Shown here piece after piece: positions 20,945 through 27,430 of a stretch of DNA of 30,025 bases. The DNA is from a virus. The notes below the pieces were generated by a model. That model was not told where the DNA came from. It made no database searches and worked only from the letters and a program-made list of their open reading frames with translations. The stretch lies in the IMG/VR virus record IMGVR_UViG_3300031578_013317, positions 1 through 30,025 of that record; one strand, given 5' to 3'. The position numbers were made by a program, and so were the translations under genes. Positions within the stretch are counted from its first letter, which is position 1. Every line of letters starts with the position of its first letter.

Positions 20945-21100
20945 TCAAAAAGGGGTATGCTCTTTTATTTTATAATCACGTTCAAGCTTCTCCGCAATAG
21001 CCCTAACCGCAAACTCATTGAACGACTTAATATTAAGCCGTTTAATAGCCTCCAATATATTTTTATCAACTCTTATTCGTCTAACAACCTTGTTATTCAT
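20945..21100 (-). CDS. Ribbon-helix-helix DNA-binding protein
   Basis: This 51-residue protein (ATG 21100, stop 20945) has the complete ribbon-helix-helix plan of Arc/MetJ/CopG regulators. It has a basic beta strand (KVVRRIRVD), helix A (KNILEAIKRLN), a turn and helix B (SFNEFAVRAIAEKLERD). It is the first gene of the minus-strand accessory operon ending in the PKD lipoprotein and probably autoregulates it. Its upstream region is only 45 bp before the cassette block begins at 21146, so the block may have separated it from its original promoter. Confidence 0.72.
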   Translation of the reverse strand: MNNKVVRRIRVDKNILEAIKRLNIKSFNEFAVRAIAEKLERDYKIKEHTPF

Positions 21101-21158
21101 GTCATTAAATGTTAATATGCCGTTAAAAGGTGCATATATAAGATAGTTAACTGCAAGG

Positions 21159-21590
21159 CTAAAGACCCGCTTCGTTGTCAGTTCGTTTTTTAATTACTTT
21201 GTTCATTGCCTTTATCAAATCATCTATAAAAGGCTGATGAATCTTAGGTATTTTATTTTTACGAACTGTTTGGCGTGAGCCGGAAAGCATCCGGCTCAAT
21301 TCGCCCCAGTTGATTAATTCAGAAGCATCAATATGTCTTCTACCATTTTTAAAAATGTTTTCTTCTAAGGTGCCGGTATCAATTCCGCTTCCAATTATTC
21401 CATGAAACTTAACCTTTGAAAAATCTTCAATATTTTGAATAACTCGTTTTTGTTTTAAAGGGCTTAATTCTTCATAGGGCTTATCCCACGCCTTCAAATT
21501 TGATTCATGTGTTATATAATGGTCCCCCATAGCCACTTTTTCATGAGATGGCAGCTCATTCCATGTTTTAATTTTTTCGGCAGTTGTCAT
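21159..21590 (-). CDS. Cassette A gene 2 (copy 1): HTH-like protein
   Basis: This 143-residue protein uses ATG 21590 (MTTAEKIKTWNELPSHEK), because the longer reading from 21692 overlaps the upstream gene. About residues 93-116 (WGELSRMLSG then SRQTVRKNKI) look like a helix-turn-helix, followed by a basic helix (LIKAMNKVIKKR). It lies 16 bp downstream of cassette A gene 1 and its stop lies 5 bp from the GCAGTTAAC box, the standard gene-then-attC layout. Two-gene cassettes with a DNA-binding partner are often toxin-antitoxin modules; that is a hypothesis here. The family is unrecognised. Confidence 0.75.
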   Translation of the reverse strand: MTTAEKIKTWNELPSHEKVAMGDHYITHESNLKAWDKPYEELSPLKQKRVIQNIEDFSKVKFHGIIGSGIDTGTLEENIFKNGRRHIDASELINWGELSRMLSGSRQTVRKNKIPKIHQPFIDDLIKAMNKVIKKRTDNEAGL

Positions 21591-21606
21591 TGTTTTAATT
21601 TTAAAA

Positions 21607-21948
21607 TTAAAATGATTTTGAATTTCTTGCTGCTCTTTCTCTTTCTTCCAAAAAATCGTTATAAGCTTCATAATTCTTAGTTCCGTCTGCATTCATCCAT
21701 GATGCTGGAGTGTTTGAAGTAATACTAAGTTTTTCGTGTAATTTTTCGGCAGATGTTTTTTGGTTAGCTGGTTTCGATTTTAATTCGATTCCATTTTCGT
21801 CTGTTAAATTATAAGCCATTTCCTTTTTTACAATTCCCGAATTATAAGTAACTTCTACATAGCCAGTAGATTTTGTAATTATAGAGGAAATAATACCTAA
21901 TCCCTTGCTTCCGTTTACCTTTGTTCCTATTTCAATCTTTGTTTTCAT
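21607..21948 (-). CDS. Cassette A gene 1 (copy 1): unknown 113-residue protein
   Basis: The start is taken at ATG 21948 (MKTKIEIGTKV), downstream of a good promoter, rather than at 22005 inside the -33 region. Residues 1-48 form a small beta-barrel-like pattern (GTKVNGSKGLGIISSI, TGYVEVTYNSGIV). A linker rich in K/S/T and a helical C-terminus (YEAYNDFLEERERAARNSKSF) follow. It resembles small SH3/KOW-like domains but is not identifiable. It is co-transcribed with the HTH-like gene 16 bp downstream. Confidence 0.7.
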   Translation of the reverse strand: MKTKIEIGTKVNGSKGLGIISSIITKSTGYVEVTYNSGIVKKEMAYNLTDENGIELKSKPANQKTSAEKLHEKLSITSNTPASWMNADGTKNYEAYNDFLEERERAARNSKSF

Positions 21949-21978
21949 CGTTGTATGTTTTATTGTTATTTGATGAAG

Positions 21979-22009
21979 TAAAGATAACACATTTGTGTGA
22001 CGCATGCAA
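21979..22009 (-). promoter_or_regulatory. Cassette A promoter (copy 1)
   Basis: On the minus strand, TTG (22009-22007) and TATCTTTA (21986-21979) are separated by 20 bp, close to the Bacteroidota TTTG / TAnnTTTG promoter. The -7 box ends 30 bp before ATG 21948. Palindromes acacatttgtgt (spacer) and acacaattgtgt (upstream) flank the -33 box and could be operators. Upstream of the TTG, a 23-bp segment is shared with the cassette C promoter. Confidence 0.6.
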
Positions 22010-22072
22010 GTATTTTAGTAATTATTTTCACACAATTGTGTTATTTATTTTCATTCTTAATAACAAAGCCCA

Positions 22073-22206
22073 GCAGTTAACACGTTGTATAAAACAAAGC
22101 GGTTTAAGTGGTTCTCGAAGCGCATCACCCGTACCAATTTCCCTGCATCGGGAAAATGGTGTAGCTCGCAATCCGCTTCGATTTCATACCACCACCGTTA
22201 GCCACC
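22073..22206 (-). repeat. attC-like site 1 (after GNAT cassette B, copy 1)
   Basis: This 134-nt imperfect palindrome lies between cassettes B and A. On the minus strand it opens with the box GGTGGCTAAC (22206-22197), 2 bp after the GNAT stop, and ends with GTTAACTGC (22081-22073). The arms pair over about 25 nt with bulges (left ACGTTGTATAAAAC then AAAGCGG; right GGTGGTATGAAAT then CGAAGCGG). The opening box is the reverse complement of the first bases of cassette B at 22550, and the closing box matches the end box of cassette A. This is the attC rule of integron cassettes. Predicted cleavage is G/TT. Confidence 0.8.
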
Positions 22207-22208
22207 AT

Positions 22209-22616
22209 TTAGGGCAGCAGAATCATCCAAATGTCATTGCTTTCTTTACATTTTACAAAGTCCTTATATCCTTTGCGTTTATACCATTCGTAAACCCAAG
22301 TTCCTTCTTTTACTTTAAGTTGAGAACTGGCATGATTGTCTTTTGCTATCTGAATGTGTAATTCTAACAATTTAGAAGCAATGCCATTTCCCCTCGCTTC
22401 TTTATCAACATGCAGTCCTTCTAAAATAACCACTGTTTCATCATCATCATACCAATATGTTCTGGCATAAGCTCTCCCGCTTTTTTCAATCATGTGAATT
22501 GATACACCCCAATCTGTTTTATCTTGATGTTTAATAAAACGGTGGCTAACAACAGGTTTAACTAATAAAGGTTTCCTACGTATGTGGTCAATAGTGCGTT
22601 TAATAAAGTTTTTCAT
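22209..22616 (-). CDS. GNAT acetyltransferase in cassette B (copy 1)
   Basis: This 135-residue N-acetyltransferase uses acetyl-CoA on an unknown substrate. The acetyl-CoA pyrophosphate loop is visible as EARGNGIASKLLE (Q/RxxGxG/A type, about residues 74-86), preceded by VVILEGLHVD and followed by WVYEWYKRKGYKDF, the usual motif A/B order. ATG 22616 and the first 22 residues lie inside the attC-like site of the preceding cassette. The cassette itself begins at VSHRF. A shorter start at Met42 is possible but would remove the first strands. Cassette-borne GNATs are common in integrons, often linked to resistance or stress; the substrate here is unknown. Confidence 0.85.
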   Translation of the reverse strand: MKNFIKRTIDHIRRKPLLVKPVVSHRFIKHQDKTDWGVSIHMIEKSGRAYARTYWYDDDETVVILEGLHVDKEARGNGIASKLLELHIQIAKDNHASSQLKVKEGTWVYEWYKRKGYKDFVKCKESNDIWMILLP

Positions 22617-22676
22617 ATTTTGATAATTTAATTGTTTTTAATCCTTTACTGGTCAAACCTGCGACCGTTACCGCCC
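22541..22676 (-). repeat. attC-like site 2 (after cassette C, copy 1), overlapping GNAT start
   Basis: This 136-nt imperfect palindrome runs from GGGCGGTAAC (22676-22667 on the minus strand, 2 bp after the 56-residue gene) to GTTAGCCACC (22550-22541). The arms are strongly paired: CAGGTTTGACCAGTAAAGG near the opening and the complement of CAGGTTTAACTAATAAAGG near the end differ at only three of 19 positions. The opening box is the reverse complement of the first bases of cassette C (TTACCGCCC at 23239). The GNAT start codon lies inside this site. Confidence 0.8.
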
Positions 22677-22678
22677 AT

Positions 22679-22849
22679 TCATAGAAACGGCACACGGTAA
22701 ATTGTAGCATCGTTTAAAACGATAGGAAAATCTTTCATCTTAAGTGAATGATATGGAAATCCAAATTCTTCACAAAGCTTTTTGAAATTACCCCGGCAAA
22801 TTGGCTCTTTGTCGGGGTAAATCAGAATAATTACGCTTTGTCTTTTCAT
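22679..22849 (-). CDS. Cassette C gene 2 (copy 1): 56-residue protein
   Basis: This short gene has ATG 22849 overlapping the stop of the 82-residue gene (TAATG). It is MKRQSVIILIYPDKEPI onward, with CRGNFKKLCEEFGFPYHSL and a C-terminal IYRVPFL. The GNFKKLCEEF...YHSLK part may be a small helix-turn-helix-like unit, as in short Bacteroidota accessory proteins. The family is unnamed. The stop lies 2 bp from the attC-like box. Confidence 0.7.
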   Translation of the reverse strand: MKRQSVIILIYPDKEPICRGNFKKLCEEFGFPYHSLKMKDFPIVLNDATIYRVPFL

Positions 22850-23097
22850 TAGTAAACAAATTCTGAAATGTCGTAATTGAAATTTTCTTTAAGCATTGTA
22901 TAAACTTCTTCGCCTAATTCTTGTGTTTTTTGAACATTACCATTCATCTCTTCAATTTCTTCATCTGTTAAATACTGATAGAAATTGTTATCGTTTGAAT
23001 CAACTTCTTGAATCATATATTCTGCGATGTTACCTTCGATAAAACTTTTGTTATCGTTTACGATTTGTTTTGCTAATTGTAATGCTGATGATTTCAT
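22849..23097 (-). CDS. Cassette C gene 1 (copy 1): acidic 82-residue protein
   Basis: This is a highly acidic, mostly helical small protein (QEVDSNDNNFYQYLTDEEIEEM is its most acidic part). It opens MKSSALQLAKQIVNDNKSF and ends FNYDISEFVY. It follows a clear promoter by 44 bp and is translationally coupled to the 56-residue gene. No family is recognised. Acidity and pairing with a small basic partner would suit an antitoxin, an inhibitor or a DNA mimic, but this is speculation. Confidence 0.72.
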   Translation of the reverse strand: MKSSALQLAKQIVNDNKSFIEGNIAEYMIQEVDSNDNNFYQYLTDEEIEEMNGNVQKTQELGEEVYTMLKENFNYDISEFVY

Positions 23098-23141
23098 TTT
23101 GTTTGTTTTTAGAGAAACAGCTTCGTTGTTGTTTCATGATG

Positions 23142-23172
23142 TAAATATACAACTCATTTTTCTATTGTGCAA
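23142..23172 (-). promoter_or_regulatory. Cassette C promoter (copy 1)
   Basis: On the minus strand, TTG (23172-23170) and TATATTTA (23149-23142) are separated by 20 bp, the same geometry as the cassette A promoter. The upstream 23 bp (minus strand GAAAATAATTAC then AAAAATACTTG) match cassette A at 22 of 23 positions. The first mismatch between the two large copies (23154) falls in this spacer. Confidence 0.65.
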
Positions 23173-23230
23173 GTATTTTTGTAATTATTTTCAAAATATT
23201 TCTATTTATTTTTAGACAACAAACAAAAAC

Positions 23231-23365
23231 GGGCGGTAACACACGGTATAAAACAATTGGGTATCTGTGGTTATTCGAGCATTTCAGCCCGTTTCAAACG
23301 TTGTGGTATTTTGACAGGTCAGAGCATCGCAGCCCAACCGATTTCATACCATCAACGTTAACTGC
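23231..23365 (-). repeat. attC-like site 3 (junction of the two block copies)
   Basis: This 135-nt imperfect palindrome lies between cassette A of copy 2 and cassette C of copy 1. On the minus strand it opens GCAGTTAAC (23365-23357), 5 bp after the HTH-like gene's stop, and ends GTTACCGCCC (23240-23231). The arms share GGTATGAAATC...GGTTGGG with the complement of GGTATAAAAC...AATTGGG. The duplication edge at 23357 is exactly the outer base of this site. It is the only complete attC-like site following cassette A. Confidence 0.8.
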
Positions 23366-23369
23366 AAGG

Positions 23370-23801
23370 CTAAAGACCCGCTTCGTTGTCAGTTCGTTTT
23401 TTAATTACTTTGTTCATTGCCTTTATCAAATCATCTATAAAAGGCTGATGAATCTTAGGTATTTTATTTTTACGAACTGTTTGGCGTGAGCCGGAAAGCA
23501 TCCGGCTCAATTCGCCCCAGTTGATTAATTCAGAAGCATCAATATGTCTTCTACCATTTTTAAAAATGTTTTCTTCTAAGGTGCCGGTATCAATTCCGCT
23601 TCCAATTATTCCATGAAACTTAACCTTTGAAAAATCTTCAATATTTTGAATAACTCGTTTTTGTTTTAAAGGGCTTAATTCTTCATAGGGCTTATCCCAC
23701 GCCTTCAAATTTGATTCATGTGTTATATAATGGTCCCCCATAGCCACTTTTTCATGAGATGGCAGCTCATTCCATGTTTTAATTTTTTCGGCAGTTGTCA
23801 T
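23370..23801 (-). CDS. Cassette A gene 2 (copy 2): HTH-like protein
   Basis: The translation is identical to 21159-21590: 143 residues with the WGELSRMLSG/SRQTVRKNKI helix-turn-helix-like region. Unlike copy 1, this copy is followed by a complete attC-like site, so it is the copy with a fully formed cassette end. Confidence 0.75.
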   Translation of the reverse strand: MTTAEKIKTWNELPSHEKVAMGDHYITHESNLKAWDKPYEELSPLKQKRVIQNIEDFSKVKFHGIIGSGIDTGTLEENIFKNGRRHIDASELINWGELSRMLSGSRQTVRKNKIPKIHQPFIDDLIKAMNKVIKKRTDNEAGL

Positions 23802-23817
23802 TGTTTTAATTTTAAAA

Positions 23818-24159
23818 TTAAAATGATTTTGAATTTCTTGCTGCTCTTTCTCTTTCTTCCAAAAAATCGTTATAAGCTTCATAATTCTTAGTTCCGTCTG
23901 CATTCATCCATGATGCTGGAGTGTTTGAAGTAATACTAAGTTTTTCGTGTAATTTTTCGGCAGATGTTTTTTGGTTAGCTGGTTTCGATTTTAATTCGAT
24001 TCCATTTTCGTCTGTTAAATTATAAGCCATTTCCTTTTTTACAATTCCCGAATTATAAGTAACTTCTACATAGCCAGTAGATTTTGTAATTATAGAGGAA
24101 ATAATACCTAATCCCTTGCTTCCGTTTACCTTTGTTCCTATTTCAATCTTTGTTTTCAT
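23818..24159 (-). CDS. Cassette A gene 1 (copy 2): unknown 113-residue protein
   Basis: The product is identical to that of 21607-21948, with the same start (MKTKIEIGTKV), promoter and 16-bp spacing to the HTH-like gene. It has a small beta-rich N-terminal domain and a helical charged C-terminus. The function is unknown. Confidence 0.7.
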   Translation of the reverse strand: MKTKIEIGTKVNGSKGLGIISSIITKSTGYVEVTYNSGIVKKEMAYNLTDENGIELKSKPANQKTSAEKLHEKLSITSNTPASWMNADGTKNYEAYNDFLEERERAARNSKSF

Positions 24160-24189
24160 CGTTGTATGTTTTATTGTTATTTGATGAAG

Positions 24190-24220
24190 TAAAGATAACA
24201 CATTTGTGTGACGCATGCAA
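24190..24220 (-). promoter_or_regulatory. Cassette A promoter (copy 2)
   Basis: This is identical to 21979-22009: TTG-N20-TATCTTTA on the minus strand, with the same flanking short palindromes and shared upstream segment. Confidence 0.6.
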
Positions 24221-24283
24221 GTATTTTAGTAATTATTTTCACACAATTGTGTTATTTATTTTCATTCTTAATAACAAAGCCCA

Positions 24284-24417
24284 GCAGTTAACACGTTGTA
24301 TAAAACAAAGCGGTTTAAGTGGTTCTCGAAGCGCATCACCCGTACCAATTTCCCTGCATCGGGAAAATGGTGTAGCTCGCAATCCGCTTCGATTTCATAC
24401 CACCACCGTTAGCCACC
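24284..24417 (-). repeat. attC-like site 1 (copy 2)
   Basis: This is the identical second copy of the 134-nt palindrome at 22073-22206, separating cassette B from cassette A. Its boxes GGTGGCTAAC and GTTAACTGC (minus strand) are intact. Confidence 0.8.
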
Positions 24418-24419
24418 AT

Positions 24420-24827
24420 TTAGGGCAGCAGAATCATCCAAATGTCATTGCTTTCTTTACATTTTACAAAGTCCTTATATCCTTTGCGTTTATACCATTC
24501 GTAAACCCAAGTTCCTTCTTTTACTTTAAGTTGAGAACTGGCATGATTGTCTTTTGCTATCTGAATGTGTAATTCTAACAATTTAGAAGCAATGCCATTT
24601 CCCCTCGCTTCTTTATCAACATGCAGTCCTTCTAAAATAACCACTGTTTCATCATCATCATACCAATATGTTCTGGCATAAGCTCTCCCGCTTTTTTCAA
24701 TCATGTGAATTGATACACCCCAATCTGTTTTATCTTGATGTTTAATAAAACGGTGGCTAACAACAGGTTTAACTAATAAAGGTTTCCTACGTATGTGGTC
24801 AATAGTGCGTTTAATAAAGTTTTTCAT
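24420..24827 (-). CDS. GNAT acetyltransferase in cassette B (copy 2)
   Basis: The 135-residue translation is identical to that of 22209-22616, with the EARGNGIASKLLE acetyl-CoA loop. As in copy 1, the start codon and first 22 codons are within the attC-like site of the preceding cassette (24752-24887). Two identical copies may raise dosage. Confidence 0.85.
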   Translation of the reverse strand: MKNFIKRTIDHIRRKPLLVKPVVSHRFIKHQDKTDWGVSIHMIEKSGRAYARTYWYDDDETVVILEGLHVDKEARGNGIASKLLELHIQIAKDNHASSQLKVKEGTWVYEWYKRKGYKDFVKCKESNDIWMILLP

Positions 24828-24887
24828 ATTTTGATAATTTAATTGTTTTTAATCCTTTACTGGTCAAACCTGCGACCGTTACCGCCC
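24752..24887 (-). repeat. attC-like site 2 (copy 2)
   Basis: This is identical to 22541-22676. Its opening box GGGCGGTAAC does not match the first bases of its own cassette in this copy (which begins TTGCCAG near 25442), unlike copy 1. That shows the right end of this copy is a hybrid. Confidence 0.78.
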
Positions 24888-24889
24888 AT

Positions 24890-25060
24890 TCATAGAAACG
24901 GCACACGGTAAATTGTAGCATCGTTTAAAACGATAGGAAAATCTTTCATCTTAAGTGAATGATATGGAAATCCAAATTCTTCACAAAGCTTTTTGAAATT
25001 ACCCCGGCAAATTGGCTCTTTGTCGGGGTAAATCAGAATAATTACGCTTTGTCTTTTCAT
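24890..25060 (-). CDS. Cassette C gene 2 (copy 2): 56-residue protein
   Basis: This is identical to 22679-22849, with ATG 25060 overlapping the stop of the 82-residue gene and the stop 2 bp before the attC-like box. The family is unknown. Confidence 0.7.
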   Translation of the reverse strand: MKRQSVIILIYPDKEPICRGNFKKLCEEFGFPYHSLKMKDFPIVLNDATIYRVPFL

Positions 25061-25308
25061 TAGTAAACAAATTCTGAAATGTCGTAATTGAAATTTTCTT
25101 TAAGCATTGTATAAACTTCTTCGCCTAATTCTTGTGTTTTTTGAACATTACCATTCATCTCTTCAATTTCTTCATCTGTTAAATACTGATAGAAATTGTT
25201 ATCGTTTGAATCAACTTCTTGAATCATATATTCTGCGATGTTACCTTCGATAAAACTTTTGTTATCGTTTACGATTTGTTTTGCTAATTGTAATGCTGAT
25301 GATTTCAT
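25060..25308 (-). CDS. Cassette C gene 1 (copy 2): acidic 82-residue protein
   Basis: The protein is identical to that of 22849-23097. Its upstream region diverges from copy 1 from 25365 onward, so the two copies differ only in promoter spacer and leader and could be expressed at different levels. Confidence 0.72.
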   Translation of the reverse strand: MKSSALQLAKQIVNDNKSFIEGNIAEYMIQEVDSNDNNFYQYLTDEEIEEMNGNVQKTQELGEEVYTMLKENFNYDISEFVY

Positions 25309-25352
25309 TTTGTTTGTTTTTAGAGAAACAGCTTCGTTGTTGTTTCATGATG

Positions 25353-25383
25353 TAAATATACAACGTATTTTTCTATTGTGCAA
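25353..25383 (-). promoter_or_regulatory. Cassette C promoter (copy 2), variant spacer
   Basis: The geometry is TTG-N20-TATATTTA as in copy 1, with two changed bases in the spacer next to the -7 box (ac for ga on the minus strand). The upstream 23-bp element retains one mismatch to copy 1. Confidence 0.6.
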
Positions 25384-25440
25384 GTATTTTTGTAATTATT
25401 TTTAAAATATTTCTATGTTTTTTGACACAAAATAAAAACT

Positions 25441-25470
25441 GGCAACAACACGTTATAATTCAAAAATGGG
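25441..25470 (-). repeat. Half attC-like site at the right edge of the cassette block
   Basis: On the minus strand a single arm ATTATAACGTGTTG followed by TTGCCAG resembles the closing arm of site 1 (TTTTATACAACGTG then TTAACTGC). The partner arm is missing: 14 bp further lies the stop of the phage gene at 25484. This marks the upstream edge of the cassette array and suggests truncation at the junction with the phage. Confidence 0.55.
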
Positions 25471-26668: not shown

Positions 26669-27430
26669 TTAAGGGTTAAAAAACATGTTTCTTTCAATAA
26701 CATCTGCAATACTATCCTTCCACCTGACCTGTGGATTGGAAGAAAGGTTATTTACAATTCCCATTATGTTGGTATCGCTATGCTGCCAGATAATAAGCTT
26801 CTTTACCAGTTGTAGCTTATCCTTGTGGTTGTTTGAGGCTACTCTTGCAATGGCGTGGTTCATTTTTCCAAGCCATATTTCACCTGAAATGAATGGACGA
26901 AGATTATTTATAATTAATTCAGGTGACTCATCAAGCATTGGCTCAATGCTTAAGCTTGTTTCAAAAGCCGCATCATAGGCAATAACTACCGATTCAGCAC
27001 GCTGCAAAAACGATGAGGCGTTTGGTTCGTAGAAGTGCAAAATGGCCGAATTGCTGCTACCAATGGTGAACCTAAATTCAACCTGTTCCCTGTAAGGTTT
27101 AAGTTCTTTGCATAGCCTCGATATGCACTCAGGAAATGCCTTTGTAACAATTAAAACCTTATTGCCAGGCATTAAGAATCGTTTCAAAAACTCAACGTGC
27201 ATGGTTAAGTTTTCAGGCCTAATGTCGTGAGCCGATGGATACATAGTAACTCCCTCACGTTTTTTGAAGTTATGGCCAAGCATGGCCGCCTTTATCTTAA
27301 ATTCGCTCGATTTTTTAAAACGGTAATTATTGGCGTTGGCATAGCAGTATATGCAACCATTTGCACAATTTCCGGTATACAGGTTTAGGCTATTCTCTGC
27401 CCATTCCTTGGTTCCAGTTTTCTTTTTCAT
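26669..27430 (-). CDS. Radical SAM protein (SplB/COG1533-like)
   Basis: This 253-residue protein carries the radical SAM cluster motif CxxxCxxC in GNCANGCIYCYAN (Cys22, Cys26, Cys29), which binds the 4Fe-4S cluster used to cleave S-adenosylmethionine. The CxYCYA form, the following conserved strand GNKVLIVTKAFPE and the EFRFTIGSSNSAILHFYEP region fit the spore-photoproduct-lyase-like COG1533 family. No C-terminal extra Fe-S domain is seen. In a Mu-like early operon it could modify or repair DNA, or modify a protein or RNA; the substrate cannot be read from the sequence. It sits 10 bp upstream of the coiled-coil gene and 3 bp after the replication-like gene. Confidence 0.82.
   Translation of the reverse strand: MKKKTGTKEWAENSLNLYTGNCANGCIYCYANANNYRFKKSSEFKIKAAMLGHNFKKREGVTMYPSAHDIRPENLTMHVEFLKRFLMPGNKVLIVTKAFPECISRLCKELKPYREQVEFRFTIGSSNSAILHFYEPNASSFLQRAESVVIAYDAAFETSLSIEPMLDESPELIINNLRPFISGEIWLGKMNHAIARVASNNHKDKLQLVKKLIIWQHSDTNIMGIVNNLSSNPQVRWKDSIADVIERNMFFNP

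Follow-up and report, generated by a model that had tools for sequence, protein, structure and literature searches.

The AT-rich DNA at 21146-25455, which lies between phage genes (33% versus 46% G+C), is very probably an array of six cassettes (A-B-C, twice) belonging to an integron-like system that is widespread in Bacteroidota and takes its phage layout here. The window, by which we mean the whole stretch of DNA analysed, is an entire IMG/VR contig of 30025 bp without end repeats, a linear and open fragment. Genes around the array include those for terminase, portal/head protein and tape measure, and the cassette genes and flanking phage genes all lie on the minus strand; the window has the phage layout without its recombinase. 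The predicted features are as follows.

21112-21148, plus strand: attI-like array end, consisting of a short hairpin, a TATA-type box and 8-9 nt, then GTT (TTAATATGCCGTTAAAAGGTGCATATATAAGATA/GTT)
21146-22196, minus strand: cassette A, copy 1; own start and end match over 9 nt
21159-21692, minus strand: ORF of 177 aa in A1, function unknown; weak phrog_34662 match at the C-terminus
21607-22005, minus strand: ORF of 132 aa in A1, function unknown
22078-22200, minus strand: attC-like recombination site after A1; covariance model R1, 107.5 bits
22197-22666, minus strand: cassette B, copy 1; own start and end match over 10 nt
22209-22616, minus strand: GNAT-family acetyltransferase ORF in B1 (PF00583, E 1e-7)
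22547-22670, minus strand: diverged-type recombination site after B1; R1, 52.8 bits, E 2e-12; outside the training set
22667-23356, minus strand: cassette C, copy 1; own start and end match over 10 nt
22679-22849, minus strand: ORF of 56 aa in C1
22849-23097, minus strand: ORF of 82 aa in C1
23237-23360, minus strand: recombination site after C1; R1, 108.5 bits
23357-24407, minus strand: cassette A, copy 2, identical to copy 1; ORFs 23370-23903 and 23818-24216
24289-24411, minus strand: recombination site after A2, from the covariance model
24408-24877, minus strand: cassette B, copy 2; GNAT ORF 24420-24827
24758-24881, minus strand: recombination site after B2, from the covariance model
24878-25440, minus strand: cassette C, copy 2; ORFs 24890-25060 and 25060-25308; last ~75 nt unlike copy 1
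25428-25455, minus strand: truncated site at the right array end (CAACACGTTATAATTC), then phage sequence

The array is built from three cassette types (A, B and C). An intact cassette extends from a GTT to the matching AAC and includes a long attC-like palindrome; in the recombinase frame (plus strand) the first copy of A reads GTTAACTGC ... GCAGTTAAC plus its site. The preliminary description had claimed five palindromes, and all five exist within a few nt of where it placed them (the five complete sites above), but only three are distinct, the other two being exact copies. This is because A-B-C occurs twice in tandem as a perfect 2211-bp repeat, 21146-23153 and 23357-25364 aligning with zero mismatches. 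It is rather unlikely that this second copy, in an otherwise real system, is an assembly error: exact 2-kb repeats are hard to assemble, and the sole other contig of the window phage (L010) ends inside the repeat, at 25238, but the GTT cut point is precisely where the repeat begins, and C1 and C2 diverge toward one end. In C2 the start/end match is lost because its end differs from that of C1 and its site breaks off near 25455; the end itself (25364-25440) looks as if produced by recombination with a related cassette. The proteins of cassettes A and C are small and of unknown function. The listed start of the GNAT ORF falls within the adjoining recombination site (22541-22616), and a later, non-ATG start is possible. 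At the other end of the array, the attI-like sequence resembles the succession of hairpin, TATA box, spacer and GTT seen 3' of recombinase genes elsewhere, and no palindrome occurs beyond the last cassette there. An unrelated 51-aa gene (20945-21100) begins 46 bp from this end, in the position where phage platforms carry the recombinase.

Sites of the same kind recur well beyond the window. A 22-nt pattern from one site end matches in nine viral contigs, and a pattern from the opposite (3') end in 26 viral contigs as well as 57 genome loci, almost all of them from Bacteroidota; the exact 5'-end pattern had no match in the genomes searched, and an Rfam search returned no family. The aligned sites are 122-126 nt long, start with (T/C)AAC, end with GTT(A/G) and have a conserved interior. 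A covariance model trained on 63 sites has an outer helix of 4 bp, spacers of unequal length and a long inner stem in which one base is unpaired, and it recovered the B-type window sites even though they were absent from the training set. The 18+4-bp stem covaries strongly, with 98.3% of cells paired and 97 cells showing double changes where shuffles averaged 28 (0/500), well above both shuffles and slid controls; wobble pairs are suggestive, and only suggestive, of folding of one strand. Long arrays occur in some genomes, for example ~20 same-strand sites in one 31-kb Geofilum contig. Judged by sequence, these are integron-like recombination sites of a single family (R1/R2) present in dozens of Bacteroidota genomes and phages.

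Cassette boundaries follow a rule that ties each start to its own end. The start is the inverse of the cassette's own end over at least 9 nt in 73% of cases (179 sites), versus 1.3% when contexts are swapped, and the rule also held for 46/63 sites in an out-of-sample set; the matches that the preliminary description had picked out by eye in A, B and C are real and far beyond chance. Among cassettes with a match of at least 8 nt, positions 1-9 nearly always match and 12-15 mostly do, while position 11 almost never matches (mostly G opposite T) and 16 is mismatched. The terminal inverted repeats of all sites have the same fixed mismatches, G opposite T and T opposite T, at 11 and 16. Each start is, in integron terms, complementary to the R'' box of its own attC-like site. 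The unit so delimited appears to move as a whole: one cassette with its site is common to two phage contigs (L016 and L025) at 99.8% identity over 844 nt, and the identity stops at AAC cores on both edges. A relative of cassette C lies between unrelated flanks in a third phage contig (L026). A motif search for cassette-borne promoters gave no enrichment. That the palindromes are dispersed repeats between phage genes, terminator or MITE-like, and not recombination sites, could draw on their conserved interior and wide distribution; it is barely credible given start/end matches that are specific to each cassette, a mobile unit with exact edges, ~20 same-strand sites per array, and a fixed distance (47-54 bp) to a recombinase gene.

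This recombinase adjoins arrays elsewhere and is a tyrosine recombinase closest to XerA and IntI. It is without the IntI insertion, missing ~40 residues, so that K box and R box are about 60 residues apart versus 100 in true IntI, and its integron-integrase score of 187-213 bits is below the cut-off of 265. In chromosomes, a cassette start lies no more than 260 bp from the end of the recombinase gene in 26/33 cases, a figure that is slightly generous because two loci look like chance or in-gene matches (L110, L168), one is doubtful (L161) and two pairs count the same genes twice (L139/L170, L150/L171); the corresponding figure for random anchors, 126/660, is itself high (19%) because cassettes abound in the control loci. 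The hairpin, TATA-type box and GTT are present at most chromosomal att points. In phages, the end of the last cassette lies 47-54 bp before the recombinase start (L173, L178, L179, L182, L200). Co-occurrence across 119 genomes of one order points the same way: 40 have both sites and recombinase, 3 the recombinase only, 38 sites only and 38 neither (p = 8e-7), so that sites are present in 40/43 genomes with the recombinase versus 38/76 without it. The probable enzyme for these sites is a XerA/IntI-like tyrosine recombinase that is not IntI. We infer that the array-linked recombinase moves the cassettes and would do so through folding of single strands; the window phage may borrow the enzyme in trans. 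Neither IntI nor any recombinase gene is present in the 30025-bp record, an open fragment, in agreement with the preliminary description, and the profile of the recombinase family has no match in the window. A grouping of the phage recombinases as one clade was dropped as unsupported in a tree whose backbone is weak.

IntI is the defining enzyme of integrons and carries a specific domain that serves its specialised single-strand pathway (PMC4792948). The preliminary description read the region as a CALIN-like array, with the phage as a vehicle for integron cassettes. Of this, the cassettes, the integron-type sites and the absence of an integrase from the record stand; the idea of ordinary IntI material ferried by a phage is not supported, as chromosomes and phages alike have the same sites beside another tyrosine recombinase, and the phage cassette genes are reversed relative to chromosomal arrays. 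An IntI with its specific insertion is found neither in the record nor in the array-linked recombinase, and the attI at the array head lies beside a non-IntI recombinase in other genomes and phages, the window showing an attI-like end only. All 139 core sites (139/139) have GTTR, and just 16/139 fit the R' form GTTRRRY that pairs with R'' RYYYAAC in classical attC. A search of site-bearing genomes for IntI found one over the cut-off in 1/20, and the ~20 kb examined around that gene yielded no sites of the family. This true IntI (357 bits) is in Tangfeifania diversioriginum (L085, G003:C42:69596-70534), and was dropped as a candidate enzyme on the latter result. We consider it quite improbable that the array is an ordinary CALIN of standard IntI cassettes taken by the phage from a host integron, even though its layout rules are integron rules, one site-bearing genome does have a true IntI, and IntI1 recombined one site of P12002L, a phage with the same site family, in Qi et al. 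2023 (PMC9892861); the consistent presence of a different recombinase beside the arrays, the poor fit to GTTRRRY, the single IntI with no such sites in the ~20 kb examined around it and the opposite gene orientation of phage and chromosomal cassettes all weigh against it.

The preferred reading, an integron-like system with another recombinase, can be placed among known systems. With IntI integrons it shares a recombinase gene, an attI, GTT...AAC cassettes with a palindromic site, co-oriented site arrays, complementary R''/R' boxes and an asymmetric site stem. It differs from them in a recombinase that lacks the IntI insertion and scores below the IntI cut-off, in a core of GTTR and not GTTRRRY, in an end complementarity of 9-10 bp plus a further stretch with the fixed mismatches at 11 and 16, in the hairpin at most chromosomal att points, and in the reversal of phage cassette genes. 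XerA, XerC and XerD enzymes resolve dimers at dif-type sites; XerA / XerC / XerD, including archaeal XerA, provide the closest solved structures and the NCBIfam family of the recombinase, whose gene, unlike theirs, heads a cassette array. Treponema integrons have a true IntI, transcribed toward attI (PMC3607928); chromosomal arrays here share that direction of transcription, whereas phage arrays point recombinase and genes the other way, and the recombinase is not IntI. For Bacteroidetes proper, IntegronFinder 2.0 reported just one complete integron (PMC9024848). Qi et al. 2023 (PMC9892861) described integrons and CALINs in phages; they report Polaribacter phage P12002L as a CALIN with methyltransferase cassettes and suggest phage mosaicism for divergent site directions. 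We find that P12002L carries the window's site family around its methyltransferase genes, so IntI1 has probably already been shown acting on such a site (PMC9892861). Because this Bacteroidota phage had already been reported as a CALIN (PMC9892861), the novelty suggested by the preliminary description, which knew of no described case in Bacteroidota Mu-like phages, is weakened. A dedicated recombinase, an attI and systematic gene reversal are not described in the available portion of that paper (PMC9892861), and a search of open-access papers came upon neither the recombinase nor its att site nor the reversed layout of phages; these three elements appear undescribed in the papers covered.

Chromosomes and phages arrange the same parts differently. 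In the chromosomal layout (recombinase, attI, gene, site) the recombinase gene reads toward the array and the cassette genes read away from the att site, whereas in the phage layout the recombinase points away from the array and the cassette genes are reversed. The ratio of canonical to reversed gene orientation was 76:8 for genome contigs and 0:33 for viral contigs, and 25:0 and 0:11, respectively, out of sample; pooled, orientation is away from the att site for 101/109 genes in chromosomal arrays and reversed for 44/44 in phages. Seven of the eight reversed exceptions on genome contigs look phage-derived, judged from their proteins. The sole clearly chromosomal cassette with a reversed gene is L107:6553-7716 (Geofilum rhodophaeum, G005:C1), which codes for a protein of the ribosomal RNA adenine dimethylase family (PF00398), to which the Erm resistance methylases belong. 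We dropped the notion that the whole system is mirrored, as only phage cassettes are reversed. Since their genes are reversed relative to chromosomal arrays, the phage cassettes give the impression of a pool of their own, adapted to phages, and the reversal could follow from running with the flanking phage genes, which in the window are on the minus strand.

A mechanism consistent with these observations would have a recombinase of the family supplied by the host or by another phage. It would cut G/TT on a folded single strand, and cassettes would be inserted and removed at the attI-like site, by which the phage may exchange small accessory genes within a single region. A-B-C could have come to be present twice through a second insertion at the same point or from unequal recombination.

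Whether phages of Bacteroidota have an integron type of their own, with a dedicated non-IntI recombinase, an att site and phage-only cassettes of reversed genes that include DNA-modification enzymes, is in our judgement an evenly balanced question. If they do, site recombination on folded single strands would have arisen, or persisted, without the IntI-specific domain. A platform of integron type that uses a different recombinase and is common in Bacteroidota would escape IntI-based search tools, and would be a second system in which to test the evolution of cassette recombination. Complete phage platforms whose reversed cassettes include methyltransferases would be a direct route for gene trading by phages, and some of the traded genes plausibly act against host restriction. 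The phage platform on one IMG/VR contig of 169,658 bp (L179:251-5941) has three N6/N4 DNA methylase genes upstream of the recombinase, along with a PAPS-reductase-type protein and DUF4326, and is possibly an anti-restriction gene bank.

INPHARED holds no near match to the window phage, and a search with two flanking proteins found no relative lacking the array, so the empty site was not seen. As for the Mu-type transposition by which the preliminary description has the phage move cassettes between genomes, the phage proteins scanned, a subset of those on this fragment, included none recognisable as a transposase. A DUF5131/radical-SAM-like gene at 26669-27430 of the window recurs, as judged by eye, in two other contigs (L001, L182).
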